Virus record (IMG/VR): IMGVR_UViG_3300032093_000594
Span: 1 to 30,127 of that record
Length of the DNA: 30,127 nucleotides
Reading direction: 5' to 3' (one strand)
Source: a virus
How positions within the stretch are numbered: the stretch's first letter is position 1; each line of letters starts with the position of its first letter. The notes under the pieces are model-generated. The model saw nothing but the letters and a program-made list of their open reading frames with translations. It ran no database searches and had not been told where the DNA came from. A program made the position numbers and the translations under genes. This document shows, in pieces, positions 2,469-29,605 of this stretch.

Positions 2469-3587
2469 TTAAATTACGTTTATTGGGTAATTAAATGGTC
2501 TATATTTTAGAGCCTTATTCATATTTTCAGCCATAGCACCCTTTATTTCCCATTGTTTTTCAGGTCTTAACCTTTCAAGTCTTGTTTTGAGTTCTTCCCA
2601 AAGAATTGATTTTTCATCTTTGGCTTCTGATTGTAACGTTGTATATTCAAGAGTTAATTCACTATCAGGTGTTTTTAAATTTCCACTAAACTTACCTCTT
2701 ACTCTTGCAAGTGTTTCTTTACAATATGCTGTAAACCATCTTCTTACCCATGTTTGTGCAGGAGAATTTAATTCGTCCCACCTTGTTTCATCTATAGGTA
2801 TATCGGAAGGTAATCTAACCACATCAGGATTTTTTGCCAAACAATCGTCCCTATCAAATGTATCATAATACCAATACCAAACTCTATAATCGTTTCTTCT
2901 CATATTACCAAAATCAAATTTACCACCAGGAACATTATATAAATGTATTGCCTTTTTTCCTTCGGGTAACGCGGTTATTCTATAAGTTAAATCACCTGTA
3001 ATAATTCTTCTTTTTAATTGTATGTCCGCCATTCTCAAAAGAATATCAAATGCTGGGGTTATAAAATAGTTTCCTGTTGTACCCATCTGAGAAAATCCAG
3101 CACCACCACCTAAACCAATACCGCCGAATCCACCGAATCCACCCATAAATGGATCAAAATATGCTGCGTCCAATTCAGAACGAGCAAACCAAAGTAATTC
3201 ATTAACCTCTCTACCTGCCGGTATCTCATAAATTTGTTGATGCGGAACTAAGTCTATATAATCTTTTTGAAGTACGTAATCACCCCCAGCCTGTAAACCA
3301 ACAATTTTTGAGTATGCGTAAGTGTATTGTGTTTCCCAATCTAAACTTCTAGTTGTAAATGCTTTAGTTAAAGATTGTTCATCAAGGTTTAACCCGTACA
3401 ATGCCGACCATTGGGTCTCAATTAACCAATCATTAACGTGTTGAGAATAATCTTGAATGGATAACTCTAAAAGAGAGTCCATCATTTCATCTTCTAACTC
3501 AACACCTCTTAAAGGTGCACCTAAAAGATTTCTAATTCTTTTATAAAGTTTACTTCTATGCGGTTCTGAAATAATTGATGTTGACAT
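2469..3587 (-). CDS. Putative neck / head-completion structural protein (T4 gp13-like)
   Basis: A 372-residue acidic protein. Visible features are an N-terminal helical segment (RSKLYKRIRNLLGAPLRGVE), a conserved-looking stretch QQIYEIPAGREVNELLWF near residue 115-132, and a glycine-rich loop around 147-170 (GGFGGFGGIGLGGGAG). A Trp/Tyr-rich segment (YRVWYWYYD) follows in the second half, with a conserved-looking end YRPFNYPINVI. I associate this pattern with a neck or head-completion protein of distant T4-like marine phages; T4 gp13 is 309 residues. The two genes I read as the next neck proteins lie on the other strand at 6165-7911, so this one is displaced from them by the dismutase and helicase. 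Start: the ATG is 14 bases after an exact TATTTATA octamer. A virion structural role is fairly safe; gp13 equivalence is tentative. Confidence 0.6.
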   Translation of the reverse strand: MSTSIISEPHRSKLYKRIRNLLGAPLRGVELEDEMMDSLLELSIQDYSQHVNDWLIETQWSALYGLNLDEQSLTKAFTTRSLDWETQYTYAYSKIVGLQAGGDYVLQKDYIDLVPHQQIYEIPAGREVNELLWFARSELDAAYFDPFMGGFGGFGGIGLGGGAGFSQMGTTGNYFITPAFDILLRMADIQLKRRIITGDLTYRITALPEGKKAIHLYNVPGGKFDFGNMRRNDYRVWYWYYDTFDRDDCLAKNPDVVRLPSDIPIDETRWDELNSPAQTWVRRWFTAYCKETLARVRGKFSGNLKTPDSELTLEYTTLQSEAKDEKSILWEELKTRLERLRPEKQWEIKGAMAENMNKALKYRPFNYPINVI

Positions 3588-3614: not shown

Positions 3615-4331
3615 TTATTCTGCTTTATTTCTTTCTAATTGAGTTGTGTATAAATCAGTAACAAAATCCCAATTCACTACTTTCCAAAAATTATGAATAT
3701 AACGGTCTCTTTCGTTTTTATATTTTAAATAATATGCGTGTTCCCATAAGTCTAAACCTAACAATGGATATGACTTATTTTTTCCTGTCATCATTAGTGG
3801 ATTATCTTGATTTGGTGTTGTGACAATTTTTAATCTATTTGTTTTTGTTAGTACTAACCATACCCAACCTGATCCAAATCTGGATTTCGCTTCTTCTTCA
3901 AACTTTTCTTTAAATTTTTCAAATGACCCAAATGTGGACTCTAACTTATATAATAAAGGATTTTCTAACTTAGTTTTTTTAGGTGATAACATTTTCCAAA
4001 ATAATGCGTGATTAAACGCACCACCACCATTGTTTCTTACCTTTGTATTGAATTTGGAAATACTCGAAACAATTTCTTCTAAATCTAAATCTTTACCTTT
4101 TATTTTTTCTAATTCTTTATTCAACTTTTCAACGTACGCCTTGTAGTGTTTTGTGTAGTGTGTTTTCATTGTCTCACCATCTATGAAGTCTTCTAAATCG
4201 TCAAACTGATAAGGTAATTTTTCTATTGAAATTTTTTTAATTTCATTAATTAAAGATTCGTTTATTAGTGATTTTACCCCTAACTTATTTTCTATTAAAT
4301 TTATTTTTTCATTTAACTTTCTAAATATCAT
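3615..4331 (-). CDS. Mn-type superoxide dismutase with N-terminal capsid-targeting-like leader
   Basis: Converts superoxide to hydrogen peroxide and oxygen. From the ATG at 4331 it is 238 residues. The Fe/Mn-SOD fold begins near residue 36 (EKLPYQFDDLEDF). Metal ligands are H58 (THYTKHYKAYV), H108 (FNHALFW), D194 and H198 (LDLWEHAYYLKY); H62 and Y66 of the active-site gateway are present. Gly104, four residues before H108, together with Gln175 (PNQDNP) is the Mn-type second-sphere pair; Fe enzymes carry Gln at the first site. All catalytic residues are intact. The first 35 residues are extra: a basic helix with KLNE at 5-8 and LINE twice (22-25, 27-30), like T4 prohead-protease sites. A GTG at 4346 overlapping the helicase stop would add 5 residues; I prefer the ATG because TATTTATT lies just upstream. 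Confidence 0.95.
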   Translation of the reverse strand: MIFRKLNEKINLIENKLGVKSLINESLINEIKKISIEKLPYQFDDLEDFIDGETMKTHYTKHYKAYVEKLNKELEKIKGKDLDLEEIVSSISKFNTKVRNNGGGAFNHALFWKMLSPKKTKLENPLLYKLESTFGSFEKFKEKFEEEAKSRFGSGWVWLVLTKTNRLKIVTTPNQDNPLMMTGKNKSYPLLGLDLWEHAYYLKYKNERDRYIHNFWKVVNWDFVTDLYTTQLERNKAE

Positions 4332-4334
4332 AAT

Positions 4335-4342
4335 AATAAATA
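4335..4342 (-). promoter_or_regulatory. Variant octamer TATTTATT next to the dismutase start
   Basis: One mismatch from TATTTATA and only 3 bases before the ATG at 4331. Such close spacing would imply a leaderless or nearly leaderless message if it is a promoter. AGAGGTGAT, overlapping the helicase stop, is also present about 12 bases before this ATG and might act as a ribosome binding site. Confidence 0.25.
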
Positions 4343-6106
4343 TCACCTCTTATGAGAAATTAAATTTAACATTTCTTCAATTGTCGATGCATCTTCCATA
4401 ATATCATCACCCATGACTGTTGATATGATTTTTTTCTTTCTATTTAAAATATCATAAATCACCCCTTCTATTGTGTTTTCAAATAATGGATAATAAACCG
4501 ATGTTGAGTTTTTTTGACCTATTCTGTGTGATCTATCTTCTGCTTGTGCGTGTTCTGCGGGGACAAAAGATAAATCATTCATGATTACGGCTTCTGCAGA
4601 TGTTAAAGTAATACCAACACCAGCGGCCTTTAAATTACCAACAAAAACTTTTATTTTGTCGTTTTCTTGAAAATCATCCACCGCTTTTTGACGATGTGGT
4701 TTTGAACAAGACCCGTCTAAATAAACTGCCTGTTTTCCAAAATGTTCATAAATGGTTCGTAACGTATCCGTAAAGTTTGTAAATATGATTACTTTTTTTC
4801 CTTGATCAATAATATTTTCAGCCAATTCAATTGTATTTTTAATTTTTTCTTCAGCAATCACTTTTCTAACTTTCATTAATTTACCAAACTGAATGGTTAA
4901 AGATGAAGACTCTTCTGAGTTGTTGTCATACCAATTAAAGTATTCACCCATTAATTCTTCATAGTCTTTTGATTTTAACCTTAAATAAACAGGAGTAATA
5001 ATTTTATCTGGTAAATCTAAAACATCTTCTTTTAATCTTCTTAAAATATGGCTTTGTGTCCTTTCTCTTAACTCATCTAAGTTTGATGCTCCCGTAACGT
5101 TCCATACCTTTCTTTTACCAACACTAAATTGAAATCCATTACAGTATCTTTTTGCGTAAGCCATCCAATTTGCGGCAACAGGACTTTCAACTAAACTTAA
5201 AAGATTGTAGTAGTTCATTGGTCTTGAGGTCATTGGGGTTCCTGTTAATAACCAAACCCTTTCAACTTTATCACATAAATCGTTAACTATTTTTGTTCTT
5301 TGTGCTTGTGGATTTGAAATCATATGTGCCTCATCCATGATAACTAAATCAAAATTAGAATTTAAAATTATGGAGTCGTCTTTCTTTTTTGGGTCGTGAA
5401 AGTTTTTTAATATGTCGTAGTTAATTATAACAAAATCAGATTCAGTTGAAAACTTTTTGCCTTCCGCAATATAAACAGTTCTATCTGAATAATTTTCAAT
5501 TTCGCGTTGCCAATTAATTTTTAAAGATGCGGGACACACAATTAATATTTTTTTTGCACCCGTTTCAAGTGCCGAAATAATTGTTGAGGTTGTTTTACCA
5601 AGACCCATGTCATCGGCCAAAATAAACTTTTTGTTTCTAACAAGTTTTTCAATCGCCTCTTTTTGGTGATCCATCGGAGCCCTGTGGTCATATTTTGAAT
5701 ATTCAATAACAACATTCTTTACCTCATTATCTTTAATAAGTGCAGTTTTTGGAATCCAAAAATCATGTATGGTCTCACCACTAAATATTTTACCCCATAT
5801 ATGGTATGACTTATCCTTCTCCACCAAAAGTTTTTCAACATATATTTCCGTTGGTTCTTTAGTGTACATCTTATCTTCCATCATTTTTTTTCCAAAATAC
5901 GAATCTAACTTGACCCATTTTTTTGCCACCTTTGGTGTTCGTCCGTGAAAGTTAATTATGTATTCCGCTTGAGATCTTGTGGGGGTAAAAGACTTACTAT
6001 TTTGTTTTTTGTTTTTTAATGACAAGATATAGTTATTTGACCCAACATAATCATCTAACATTTGAAGGGCCCTTGTTTCAGGTGTTTTTGAAATTAATTC
6101 TTCCAT
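4343..6106 (-). CDS. SNF2-family DNA helicase/translocase
   Basis: A superfamily 2 ATP-dependent DNA translocase of 587 residues. The N-terminal region (1-140) looks like a substrate-recognition region. Motif I is DDMGLGKT (165-172), motif Ia is IVCPASLKINW (189-199), motif II is DEAH (258-261) and motif III is LLTGTPM (286-292). In the second RecA lobe, motif V lies in the GVGITLTSA stretch (496-504) and motif VI is QAEDRSHRIGQ (521-531). The complete HRIGQ signature identifies the SNF2 class, with an architecture like compact SMARCAL1-type fork-remodelling enzymes; T4 UvsW could be a functional analogue. The frame extends to 6277, but that would overlap the divergent gene at 6165; ATG 6106, just after TATTTATA, is the better start. 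The stop lies 11 bases before the dismutase ATG, so the two are likely co-transcribed. Confidence 0.93.
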   Translation of the reverse strand: MEELISKTPETRALQMLDDYVGSNNYILSLKNKKQNSKSFTPTRSQAEYIINFHGRTPKVAKKWVKLDSYFGKKMMEDKMYTKEPTEIYVEKLLVEKDKSYHIWGKIFSGETIHDFWIPKTALIKDNEVKNVVIEYSKYDHRAPMDHQKEAIEKLVRNKKFILADDMGLGKTTSTIISALETGAKKILIVCPASLKINWQREIENYSDRTVYIAEGKKFSTESDFVIINYDILKNFHDPKKKDDSIILNSNFDLVIMDEAHMISNPQAQRTKIVNDLCDKVERVWLLTGTPMTSRPMNYYNLLSLVESPVAANWMAYAKRYCNGFQFSVGKRKVWNVTGASNLDELRERTQSHILRRLKEDVLDLPDKIITPVYLRLKSKDYEELMGEYFNWYDNNSEESSSLTIQFGKLMKVRKVIAEEKIKNTIELAENIIDQGKKVIIFTNFTDTLRTIYEHFGKQAVYLDGSCSKPHRQKAVDDFQENDKIKVFVGNLKAAGVGITLTSAEAVIMNDLSFVPAEHAQAEDRSHRIGQKNSTSVYYPLFENTIEGVIYDILNRKKKIISTVMGDDIMEDASTIEEMLNLISHKR

Positions 6107-6111
6107 TATAT

Positions 6112-6119
6112 TATAAATA
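6112..6119 (-). promoter_or_regulatory. Putative late promoter octamer TATTTATA before the helicase
   Basis: Read on the minus strand it lies 5 bases before the ATG at 6106. It occupies the 58-base divergent spacer with the variant plus-strand octamer at 6154. Confidence 0.4.
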
Positions 6120-6153
6120 AAAATAGTAAATAATATAAAAAAATCAATCAAAG

Positions 6154-6161
6154 TATTTATT
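6154..6161 (+). promoter_or_regulatory. Variant octamer TATTTATT before the 171-residue virion gene
   Basis: One mismatch from TATTTATA, 3 bases before the ATG at 6165. The same variant and spacing occur before the dismutase. Confidence 0.3.
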
Positions 6162-6164
6162 AAT

Positions 6165-6680
6165 ATGTCACAGAATAAAGTTCCAATTACAAGATTAAAT
6201 AAGTTTTTCTCAGAGGAAGATTTTAATTTAGATATTAATATGGGAATGGAATGGCAAATTGGGGATATGAATTTCACAGTTGTTTTATATCGAGTAGATA
6301 GACAAAAAACAAATAATGATGATGTTTATGGAGAAGCGTTAACAAATGGAATACAATTTTTAGCACCTATCGAATTAAGAGGTTTAGTTAAAATAGATTC
6401 ACCATCAAATTCAGACTATGGTTCGTCTAAATTATCACAAGTAGAACCAGGAAATATGACCTTTAGTGTTTATCAATCACATTTAGATCAATTTGCTGTA
6501 GAAATATCTTTAGGTGATTATTTAGCCTATTATGAAACAGAAGATAGAGTAAGATACTATACGGTAGTAAATGATGGTAGAGTTAATTCAGATTTGAAGC
6601 ACTCTTATGGTGGATATAAAAAATATTATAGAACAATAATCGCAGCACCAACAACACAAGAAACCTTTAACGGAGTATAA
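6165..6680 (+). CDS. Putative neck / head-closure virion protein
   Basis: A 171-residue protein that I do not recognise with certainty. It looks mixed or all-beta, with MEWQIGDMNFTVVLYRVDRQ near the start and a conserved-looking centre and end: FSVYQSHLDQFAVEISLGDYLAYYETEDRVRYYTVVNDG. The end includes KKYYRTIIAAP. This composition and its place, directly before a tail-terminator-like gene and upstream of the sheath, fit a T4 gp14-like neck or head-closure protein. One base separates its stop from the next ATG, so the pair is probably translationally linked. Start: ATG just after TATTTATT. A virion role is likely; the exact neck position is inferred from gene order. Confidence 0.55.
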   Translation: MSQNKVPITRLNKFFSEEDFNLDINMGMEWQIGDMNFTVVLYRVDRQKTNNDDVYGEALTNGIQFLAPIELRGLVKIDSPSNSDYGSSKLSQVEPGNMTFSVYQSHLDQFAVEISLGDYLAYYETEDRVRYYTVVNDGRVNSDLKHSYGGYKKYYRTIIAAPTTQETFNGV

Positions 6681-11473: not shown

Positions 11474-11611
11474 ATGAAAATAGAAAAGAAAATTATCAAA
11501 GAAACTGTTAATGATTTTTCAAGATCTGAAAAAACTTTTTCATCAAAAAAACAAAATATTATTATAACTGAAGAACAACTTCAGAAACTTCTTTTGATTG
11601 TAAAAAAATAA
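11474..11611 (+). CDS. 46-residue basic peptide upstream of the HAD-like gene, unknown
   Basis: Starts MKIEKKIIKETVNDFSRSEK and ends ITEEQLQKLLLIVKK (45 residues plus stop). It is Lys-rich and likely helical. The frame extends to an ATG at 11426, but that start lies inside the sheath hairpin and before the promoter octamer, so 11474 is preferred. The stop overlaps the next start (TAATG), a sign of translational coupling to the hydrolase. ITE near the end fits the (I/L)xE form of T4-type prohead protease sites, and the basic N-terminus resembles the leaders of three other proteins here. It might therefore be a capsid-internal peptide. Function is unknown. Confidence 0.5.
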   Translation: MKIEKKIIKETVNDFSRSEKTFSSKKQNIIITEEQLQKLLLIVKK

Positions 11612-12564
11612 TGAATATTAGAAAACACATATATAGAGAGATTAATAAACGAAGATTAAATGAAGGTATTACTGAAGAAGGGAGACCAGATTTAAATTAT
11701 TATGCGTTTGATTGGGATGATAATATTGCATTTATGCCAACTAAAATTATTGTTTTAACAGAAAATGAGGATGAGATTGGACTGTCAACCGAAGATTTTG
11801 CTGAACACAGACACCAAATAGGTGTTGAACCTTTTAATTATAAAGGAACTACTGTTGTTGGTTATGCAAATAATCCCTTTAGAAATTTTAGAACAGAAGG
11901 GGATAAAAGATTTATAATCGACTCGATGATTGCAAGTCCAGGACCATCATGGAATGACTTTGTGGAATGTATTAATGGGGGGTCAATTTTTGCAATTATA
12001 ACAGCAAGAGGACATAATCCTGAAACATTAAAAGAGGCGGTTTTAAATTATATTATATCAAATCATTTGGGTATAAATTCTAAAGTTTTAGTGGAGAACC
12101 TAAAAAAATATAGGGGGTTACAAACTCAAGGAATGTTCGAAACTGTAAGAGACTTAAAGTATGATGATAAAGAACTTATTATGGATTACTTAGATATGTG
12201 TAAATTTCATCCAGTTTCTTTTGGTGCCGGCAGCGCAGCATCACCTGAAGAAGAAAAAAATAAAGCACTTCAAAAATTTATAATTTATTGTAAACAACAA
12301 GCAAGAGATTTGGTACAAGACATTTTAAATAAAAACCCAAATAAAAAATTAGAAGACATTTCTCCAAAATTTAAAAATGATGTTAATATGAACGAACCAA
12401 CACAAGACATAGAAGAGTTTGTTTCTAGAAACGTTTCAATTGGTTTTTCAGATGATGATCCAAGAAATATTCAAGCATCTTCTGAATTTTTGAAAAAAGA
12501 ATATGAAAAAAGTCCAGTTAATTTATATTTAACTAAAGGAGGAACTAAAACTAAATATGATTAG
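11611..12564 (+). CDS. HAD-like hydrolase/phosphatase with capsid-targeting-like leader
   Basis: A 317-residue protein of the haloacid dehalogenase type, probably a phosphatase. Motif I is YAFDWDDNI, giving nucleophile D34 and acid/base D36. Motif II is AIITARGH with T131. A motif IV candidate is GFSDDDPRNI (278-287). The motif III lysine is not obvious. Between motifs I and II is a roughly 90-residue insertion that would form the cap, so the substrate cannot be predicted. Residues 1-18, MNIRKHIYREINKRRLNE, are strongly basic and end in LNE before GITEEG, like a T4 capsid-targeting sequence; cleavage after E18 would leave the enzyme intact. It overlaps the preceding peptide gene by one base. 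In T4-like phages HAD domains also occur in polynucleotide kinase-phosphatase, but no kinase part is present. Confidence 0.75.
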   Translation: MNIRKHIYREINKRRLNEGITEEGRPDLNYYAFDWDDNIAFMPTKIIVLTENEDEIGLSTEDFAEHRHQIGVEPFNYKGTTVVGYANNPFRNFRTEGDKRFIIDSMIASPGPSWNDFVECINGGSIFAIITARGHNPETLKEAVLNYIISNHLGINSKVLVENLKKYRGLQTQGMFETVRDLKYDDKELIMDYLDMCKFHPVSFGAGSAASPEEEKNKALQKFIIYCKQQARDLVQDILNKNPNKKLEDISPKFKNDVNMNEPTQDIEEFVSRNVSIGFSDDDPRNIQASSEFLKKEYEKSPVNLYLTKGGTKTKYD

Positions 12565-28674: not shown

Positions 28675-28902
28675 ATGAGCAATATTAAAAATTTATTAGA
28701 TGATTATTTGAAAAAAGATACTAGATTATCTGAAAAACAAATAGATGCTGACCACAAACAAGTTTGTGATTTGGATACTGGTGATTGTTATACCATTAGA
28801 ATGAAAGATGGTTTAATAGAGAGGGTAGACAATACTCTTAAAACAAATAGAACATTAAAGGTAGAAACACCAACAGGTGTGAAAACATTATTGAATGGTT
28901 AA
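28675..28902 (+). CDS. 75-residue protein, unknown
   Basis: Starts MSNIKNLLDDYLKKDTRLSE; the remainder is a small beta-like unit with two cysteines (VCDLDTGDCYTIRMKDGLIERVDN) and ends VKTLLNG. I do not recognise it. The CxxxxxxC spacing in a beta hairpin could bind a metal or form a disulfide. The first 20 residues are amphipathic and end in LSE, a loose fit to the (I/L)xE prohead protease form. It lies between the baseplate genes and the Pro/Gly/Ala-rich protein, and the next frame starts either 8 bases inside its end or 11 bases after it. Confidence 0.65.
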   Translation: MSNIKNLLDDYLKKDTRLSEKQIDADHKQVCDLDTGDCYTIRMKDGLIERVDNTLKTNRTLKVETPTGVKTLLNG

Positions 28903-28912
28903 AAATATTAAA

Positions 28913-29605
28913 ATGAGTGTAGATAAAAAGATTTTACAAGAAATACAAAGAATTAAAAATATAAACAGATATATTCTTAATGAACAAGAACCACCGGCTG
29001 AACCACCGGCAGATCCTGCAGCACCTCCAGGTGGAGAAGAGGGTCCTATTGGTGATGTGCCACCACCTGCAGATGCAGGGGCACCGGCACCTGGTGGAGA
29101 CGCAGGTGCACCACCAACAGGAGGGACTGAAGTGCCTGAACCTGTAGATGTTGCAAACGATCCTGATGTTGAAGAAGTAGGTGCTGAAACCGAAGGTGCT
29201 GAAGGGGGTGAAGAGGAATCTGAAGAAATTGACATCACTGATTTAGTTACAACACAACAAGAAATTAAAGATAAACAGGATGGGTTTATGGACGACATGA
29301 TTTCTAAATTGGACGAATTGCAATCTAAATTACAAAGCATGGATCAAATTTTAAGTAAAATTGAAAACTTAGAGAAAAAATTTGATAGATATAGAGATAA
29401 AACACCTGAAGAAAAACTAATGTTAAGATCTTTAGACTCTTACCCATATAATCAAAAACTAACCGATTTTTTTGATGATAAAAAAGTAGATATGGAAAAG
29501 TCAGGAAAAAATGAATATATTTTAACATCTGACGAAGTTGAAAATTTCTCACCAGGAGAAATTAAAAAAACCTTCAATATTTATGATGATGAAGAAGAAA
29601 TGTAA
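28913..29605 (+). CDS. Pro/Gly/Ala-rich acidic protein with capsid-targeting-like leader
   Basis: A 230-residue protein from ATG 28913 (an ATG at 28895 would add six residues and overlap the preceding gene). Residues 1-24, beginning MSVDKKILQEIQ and ending NRYILNE, are a basic amphipathic helix ending in ILNE. Residues 25-105 are a low-complexity Pro/Ala/Gly tract turning strongly acidic, encoded by DNA much richer in G and C than the rest of the window. A coiled-coil region with DGFMDDMISKLDELQSKLQS and SKIENLEKKFDRY follows, and then a folded-looking end TFNIYDDEEEM. Leader, acidity and coiled coil resemble prohead core/scaffold or internal proteins of T4-like phages (gp22, gp67, gp68 class), which are cut by the prohead protease. 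No homologue recognised with certainty. Confidence 0.7.
   Translation: MSVDKKILQEIQRIKNINRYILNEQEPPAEPPADPAAPPGGEEGPIGDVPPPADAGAPAPGGDAGAPPTGGTEVPEPVDVANDPDVEEVGAETEGAEGGEEESEEIDITDLVTTQQEIKDKQDGFMDDMISKLDELQSKLQSMDQILSKIENLEKKFDRYRDKTPEEKLMLRSLDSYPYNQKLTDFFDDKKVDMEKSGKNEYILTSDEVENFSPGEIKKTFNIYDDEEEM

Follow-up and report, generated by a model that had tools for sequence, protein, structure and literature searches.

The window, by which we mean the whole stretch of DNA analysed here (an entire virus record of 30,127 bases), encodes a superoxide dismutase (SOD) that does not start at its catalytic domain, and the question raised by this locus is whether the piece in front is a leader that loads the enzyme into the phage head and is cut off there by a prohead protease. 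Such a packed and trimmed dismutase had been proposed in the initial annotation of the sequence. Neck, helicase, DNA polymerase and gp32-like genes lie in the same window, together with tail genes recognised by eye, and the record is to all appearance a fragment of about 30 kb; its host might be one of the Bacteroidota, although this is a guess.

The SOD reading frame begins MIFRKLNEKINLIENKLGVKSLINESLINEIKKISIEKLPY..., and both Pfam domains of the family exceed their curated cut-offs (Sod_Fe_N from residue 36, 84.7 bits versus 27; Sod_Fe_C from residue 125, 137.3 bits versus 20.9), which places the protein among the Fe/Mn superoxide dismutases. The best solved match by sequence is 5n56, a Mn/Fe SOD (E 3e-59), in which chain residue 5 corresponds to query residue 36. 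Residues H58, H108, D194, H198 and Q175 are invariant across 59 aligned phage SODs (that of the window and 58 of 72 representatives, 54-87% identity), and we take the first four to be the metal ligands (His, His, Asp, His). The SOD had no match in PHROGs at E 0.001. By domain content and motifs the window protein is thus a Mn/Fe-type SOD, with predicted enzyme activity.

The features of the locus are collected in Table 1. All three words named in the initial annotation (KLNE, LINE and LINE) are present ahead of the SOD, along with a further one, LIE. The length of 35 residues given there has to be corrected, as the leader measures 30 residues to its last Glu and 38 to the LPY motif, and its description as basic and helical holds for the helix, predicted at residues 2-17, but overstates the charge, which is +1 net. 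Four [IL]xE words in 30 residues were reached by 0.7% of leader shuffles and by 0.09% of draws from the composition of the whole protein. In the AlphaFold model, residues 24-31 have a pLDDT below 50 and lie between the helix, predicted with middling confidence, and the confident SOD core; this loose stretch includes E25 and E30, the last residues of the two LINE words. With cleavage after E30, the protein would begin IKKISIEKLPY, an N-terminus of approximately the length of a cellular SOD start. A signal peptide was considered and rejected, since the leader carries charges and its mean hydropathy over 11 residues peaks at 0.72, unlike a secretion signal.

Table 1. Coordinates of the SOD gene, its leader and other features of the window.
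Feature	Position	Strand	Basis or remark
Neck gene, head-tail adaptor Ad2 match	2469..3587	-	SOD neighbour, kept in distant relative
Mn/Fe-type superoxide dismutase gene	3615..4331	-	238 aa, start ATG 4331
Predicted mature SOD	3618..4241	-	Cut after Glu30; N-terminus IKKISIEKLPY
Leader, residues 1-30, ending at conserved Glu30 (LINE-S-LINE)	4242..4331	-	Sequence and alignment
LINE (27-30), conserved putative prohead-protease site	4242..4253	-	Alignment, AlphaFold
LINE (22-25), putative cleavage site after Glu25	4257..4268	-	Matched in 8/111 distinct forms
Predicted helix, residues 2-17, presumed targeting element	4281..4328	-	AlphaFold; mean pLDDT 67 (1-10), 74 (11-20)
LIE (12-14), fourth [IL]xE word, not named in the initial annotation	4290..4298	-	Sequence
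LNE (6-8), [IL]xE word	4308..4316	-	Outside conserved alignment columns
Likely ribosome-binding site of SOD gene, AGAGGTGAT	4342..4350	-	Sequence reading, upstream of ATG
SNF2-type helicase ORF	4343..6277	-	SOD neighbour, other side
Second leader of SOD-leader style, ...NKRRLNE/GITEEGRP	11611..11664	+	On 317-aa ORF 11611-12564
Third leader of SOD-leader style, ...KNINRYILNE/QEPP	28895..28984	+	On 236-aa ORF 28895-29605
A slash marks the presumed cut, here and in the text.

Searches with the window SOD separated phage from cellular enzymes at this front piece. The match begins at residue 1-8 in all of the best 80 of 589 viral relatives, and from residue 14 or later in 61/61 cellular loci (from 20-39 in 58/61). 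A front piece common to phage and cellular SODs was thus not seen in the 61 cellular loci; the proposal that cellular SODs lack such a leader stands to that extent, but several of them have front pieces of another type, such as signal-peptide-like stretches. From 160 viral loci we kept 157 SOD reading frames, 111 of them distinct, and cellular frames were obtained from 50 of the 61 loci. Comparison of the leaders of these homologues, which the initial annotation had pointed to, revealed, in 110 of the 111 distinct phage forms, an [IL]xE word at positions -11 to -9 relative to LPY, a motif that a few forms replace by LQY; the remaining one (L220) reads VAE. This matches the (L/I)-x-E cleavage word known from the leader boundary of T4 proteins processed by gp21 (PMC9026906). 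At the boundary site, P3 is Ile in 66, Leu in 44 and Val in 1, whereas P2 is free, with nine different residues; P1' is Ile, Met or Ala in 110/111. The P1 Glu is encoded by GAA in 92 forms and by GAG in 19, and the use of both codons indicates that it is kept at the protein level. Of the two cleavage sites foreseen, after residues 25 and 30, that at residue 30 is therefore conserved family-wide, but the other only has counterparts in the few forms given in Table 1. Together with the shuffle tests, this conservation makes a chance origin of the [IL]xE words unlikely.

A tree built from 65 phage SODs, thinned at 92% identity, and 49 cellular ones groups the phage enzymes as a single clade with 100/99 support, with the bootstrap unsettled, and the leader would thus be old and kept. 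The gene is also settled and not a recent pick-up, since the window shares the gene order helicase, SOD, neck gene and DNA polymerase (the last by eye) with G035, a 322-kb phage whose SOD carries a second domain.

The main rival to a trimmed leader is a lasting one. The uncut helix could act as a tether for docking or oligomerisation of the SOD, or for anchoring it to DNA, membrane or a partner within the infected cell. E30 and K32 would then be structural, and the enzyme an ordinary auxiliary product made during infection. E30 is the first invariant column of the 59-SOD alignment, K32 is equally invariant and I10 nearly so; conservation of the three together would suit a tether, and because K32 is as invariant as E30, the E-x-K could serve the enzyme itself. 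Against the tether, E30 lies in the stretch predicted to be loose, and P2 is free between an Ile or Leu at P3 and a Glu at P1. We regard the tether as unlikely, though worth weighing against the further evidence below.

The 111 distinct forms come in three builds: SOD alone, as in the window (22); MP-SOD, with a metallopeptidase-like domain bearing HEWxHE in front, so that the leader becomes an internal linker (29); and SOD-C, with a second domain behind the SOD (60). The leader has no domain ahead of it in 82/111 forms and is N-terminal in the window. In the 60/60 SOD-C forms there is no metallopeptidase ahead, the open frame before LPY being at most 80 residues. In the SOD-C linker, aligned for 35 of 38 representatives, E238 is kept in 35/35 and E248 in 34/35, both with a hydrophobic P3, and the other columns of 229-253 are less constant; the predicted structure of a SOD-C protein is loose at 22-43 and at 233-251. 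SOD-C therefore looks like a precursor to be cut into the SOD and a second protein, and the recurrence of the same pattern twice in its linker is a further point against the tether, in whose favour it can be said that the MP-SOD forms preserve the leader region between two domains.

Those MP-SOD forms also speak against head cargo, as in 29/111 the leader lies behind the HEWxHE domain, and the standalone genes for this domain that were read, in G033 and G035, have no leader (2/2). One explanation would be that the leader is a functionless leftover of an earlier metallopeptidase-SOD fusion, in which it was the linker. Two observations favour it: in three loci (L042, L076 and L079) the leader is still preceded by what resembles the beginning of the metallopeptidase frame, and the MP label requires nine changes on the tree, three of them forced by well-supported branches. 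The leftover reading does not account for the SOD-C forms, which have the leader without any metallopeptidase ahead, nor for E30, which is invariant throughout. It also runs against the distribution of additional sites, which are in excess only in the builds with an N-terminal leader: with leaders thinned to 70% identity, the number of extra [IL]xE words beyond the final site was reached by 1/1000 composition shuffles for SOD alone, by 0/1000 for SOD-C and by 250/1000 for MP-SOD, which has no excess and retains the final site, these counts not being probabilities since the sequences are related. We read the leader as full where it is N-terminal and as a bare cut site where it is internal, and consider the leftover very improbable, the least probable of the readings weighed here.

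Neither accessory domain could be placed by family. The HEWxHE (HExxH) domain, of about 125 aa, occurs fused to SOD or alone (L012:7469-7843, L288:1474-1863, L289:1447-1836) and matched no Pfam family over the cut-off, DUF6055 remaining below it. The conserved 260-aa domain after the SOD in L074:7800-9335 and relatives contains GGVD...Q-K, reading like PD-(D/E)XK nucleases; from this motif, seen by eye, it may be nuclease-like. It likewise had no Pfam family over the cut-off, and a Foldseek search with the SOD-C model returned only SODs in the best 50 of 469 matches.

Trimming requires a protease. Peptidase_S77 or a close relative was found in 12/43 distinct SOD-bearing records related to the window, some of them near-copies (e.g. 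G004 and G005); this figure combines 8/22 records over the Pfam cut-off, 1/9 by protein search and 3/12 by family, and T4, used as a control, also exceeded the cut-off. The PHROGs label for the relatives' protease is head maturation protease, and in the five records read out its gene lies between those for portal and capsid, as in T4. The T4-type prohead protease anticipated elsewhere in the genome is thus present in relatives, but none was found in the 30-kb window fragment, among whose ORFs no capsid gene was seen. Neither a protease nor a capsid gene was found in the closest long relatives of the window (G001, G002, G003 and G023), all of them fragments; G003 seems to be cut short, because the counterparts of its last genes in G022 are situated about 7 kb away from the capsid gene there. 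The G022 capsid protein is Gp23 by Pfam, and in 5/5 records read whole the capsid protein has LINE/A, by eye at the place where T4 has FLTE/A; this reading is independent, which a capsid count made with a pattern demanding [IL]xEA is not. Since the capsid proteins of five relatives read LINE/A, LINE is probably a true cut word of these phages. Counting against head cargo, the P1' residue of the SOD differs from the Ala of the capsid protein, and from the Thr, Asn or Asp found in 27/47 other leaders. Separately, the ORF that occupies the portal position in G015 (L116:3630-6401) has 923 aa as opposed to 603-606 in four others, and holds CLAGDTKIATPSGFVTIK, likely an intein.

Dismutases of other phages give a divided picture. 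Cultured Pseudomonas phage Callisto, of the PA5oct group, has a SOD (L298:556-1104) that is about 27% identical to that of the window and begins MNDSIKKYISIAE/AASSVKKIPIPY, and thus has a front piece of the IAE/A kind (MNDSIKKYISIAE/AASSVKK), close to the FIAE/A style of T4. As in the relatives of the window, a Fe/Mn SOD is here combined with a Peptidase_S77 protease in a large phage; the front piece is shorter than that of the window and of other sequence, and it was read in Callisto, one of the 11 listed records of the PA5oct group. We take the start of this SOD as an independent hint, and it overturned the view, drawn from coordinates alone, that other phage SODs all lack leaders. Vibrio phage 2.275 has the protease and a SOD without such a leader, so that one of these two protease-bearing phages has it, which is a lead and not a test; the SOD of MW462191 has none either. 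These two leaderless enzymes favour the tether, as they imply that a phage SOD needs no packaging. The main text of the paper on phage MIJ3, also of the PA5oct group, in which the major virion bands were analysed, contains neither 'superoxide' nor 'dismutase' (PMC6892783).

The nearest known system is that of T4. Its gp21 is reported to cleave after (L/I)-x-E, and ten N-terminal residues of IPIII are enough to have a protein packaged (PMC9026906); Alt is processed at its two ends, and proteins foreign to T4 enter the head when supplied with the leader (PMC9026906, PMC3012670). IPI, IPII, IPIII and Alt, like the SOD, have a short N-terminal leader with (L/I)-x-E before the cut and are diverse cargo with only the leader in common, as these papers describe (PMC3012670, PMC9026906), and relatives of the SOD phage share with T4 the gp21-type protease and the Gp23 capsid protein. 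The SOD differs from them in being a dismutase, in having a leader of 30 residues where IPIII needs 10, in that its packaging is putative, and in that relatives carry the leader module also between domains. By eye its leader bears no likeness to the IPIII targeting peptide (MKTYQEFIAE), likeness not being a defining feature; T4 Alt begins MELITE. In phiKZ-like giant phages and SPN3US, head proteins have N-terminal propeptides with several protease motifs, but these phages belong to another lineage, the SPN3US propeptides are mostly longer, and no SOD is named in the parts of the two papers available (PMC10052503, PMC5694885).

On the head-cargo model the SOD would be made as a precursor and directed by its 30-residue leader to the core of the prohead, where the N-terminal helix would presumably bind the scaffold. 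A T4-type prohead protease would then cut after Glu30, and probably also after other (I/L)xE words of the leader, leaving within the head what should be a Mn/Fe SOD of normal size. Conceivably the enzyme is ejected with the DNA and removes superoxide from the first moment, or it guards the packaged DNA. In related phages the precursor would be a polyprotein in which the SOD is followed by a linker bearing two further (I/L)xE sites and then by the second domain. Since T4 offers precedents, in the two-ended processing of Alt and in the packing of foreign proteins by means of the leader, the model calls for no unknown packaging mechanism.

A precursor cut and packed in the same way could also serve solely within the particle, shielding packaged DNA or proteins from superoxide, with no role in the next host. 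This variant shares all the packaging evidence, and nothing is specific to the use it proposes. We find it very improbable, given that many T4 internal proteins as well as Alt are ejected, according to the portion of PMC9026906 available. For a virus-coded SOD in a virion there is one comparable case, from outside the phages. Chlorovirus PBCV-1 is a eukaryotic virus whose Cu/Zn SOD is unrelated to the Fe/Mn enzyme, and we know of no prohead-protease leader on it. That SOD, A245R, is the product of a late gene and is packaged in the virion, and in the part of the report available its authors predict that it helps to lower superoxide in infected cells (PMC7019647); packaging is known there and putative for the phage SOD.

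Leaders of this general kind extend well beyond the SOD. The word [IVL][IL]xE is concentrated at N-termini, with frequencies per 1000 residues, at residues 1-10 and 11-20 versus beyond residue 110, of 12.9 and 9.9 vs 2.1 in G022, 13.4 and 12.6 vs 1.9 in G003, 5.5 and 6.8 vs 2.5 in G004, 3.7 and 3.7 (two words each) vs 1.8 in G001, 5.1 and 3.6 vs 2.2 in T4, and 6.6 and 6.1 vs 1.8 in Flavobacterium phage immuto. Five leader patterns (e.g. IRLTESDLxRIVRRVIxE and MNLQExIRRVLxE) were written after viewing the genomes, internal Met being the fair control. They matched ORF starts in 36/303 cases in G022, 35/238 in G003, 3/146 in G004, 2/54 in G001 and 0/195 in T4, compared with 1/1193, 1/801, 0/740, 0/284 and 0/631 at internal Met; one match each in G003, G004 and G001 is by eye a DNA polymerase and so false. 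The SOD leader matches none of the five, another point against head cargo. Beyond residue 45 the leader proteins are unrelated within a genome (36/36 clusters in G022, 33/33 in G003, at E 1e-4), and to judge from these comparisons the leaders are portable between unrelated proteins. In five phages, a gene beside or near the capsid gene has different leaders with the same cut word (MIERTIKNILKE/ATS, MNQQEKFFLLNE/VTS, MDRKINE/ATS, MIENIIQKVIKE/ITS and MIEKIIKKVLNE/TTS). Conservation in general adds little: over 345 pooled ortholog pairs, the Glu of N-terminal [IL]xE words was kept in 161/248 cases and other N-terminal Glu in 545/926, a small gap and a weak one, the interior values being 670/1110 and 3081/5176. 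The P3 count over the other leaders was mixed, and the end of a pattern is not always the cut site.

ORFs with a leader pattern often stand in runs of neighbouring genes (L091-L105 in G022, L128-L138 in G003). Leaders of similar style also occur on proteins resembling wall hydrolases (Hydrolase_2, PG_binding_1, Glyco_hydro_19; L129:8393-9253, L132:2774-3577, L289:582-1400). Phage immuto (L301-L308), a cultured T4-like phage, combines a head of the T4 type with N-termini that resemble leaders, for example MKKQILSEQFRRMQKLAGIITE and MENFDLKKFLVEN...LINE, and the leader system may be testable in culture through it; no match to the SOD was found in immuto, and the phage is not named in the portion of PMC7077304 available.

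From sequence and predicted structure, we therefore think it reasonably probable that the SOD is head cargo whose leader is trimmed by the prohead protease, because the site is conserved, the structure predicted there is loose and the cut coincides with the enzyme boundary. The proposal of a packed and trimmed dismutase is further supported by the protease and the LINE/A capsid protein of relatives and by the other leader proteins in two of them, the internal leaders of the MP-SOD forms and the weak outcome of the pooled ortholog comparison being points against it. More tentatively, and with somewhat less than an even chance of being right, these phages would be a giant T4-like lineage in which interchangeable leaders load dozens of unrelated proteins (about 35 per genome by strict patterns, in two long records), which the prohead protease frees before injection; the SOD would be a long-kept cargo and, in one group, part of a polyprotein in which a linker with two protease sites joins it to a second domain.

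Targeting leaders as such are known from T4. Among the open-licence matches listed, no printed account was found of a dismutase as cargo, of the polyprotein arrangement or of a leader system on this scale, and no phage-virion SOD appeared in title, abstract start or term counts, and the leader words LTESDLA, RMQELAG, RMQKLAG and LAGIITE were not found in open-licence papers. If the cargo reading is true, the literature searches point to no earlier example of a phage carrying an antioxidant enzyme in its head. The (I/L)xE leaders would then be a readable code, making it possible to list from sequence what uncultured giant phages carry. Dozens of unknown proteins that reach the host ahead of phage gene expression would figure in such lists, a likely place for counter-defence functions.
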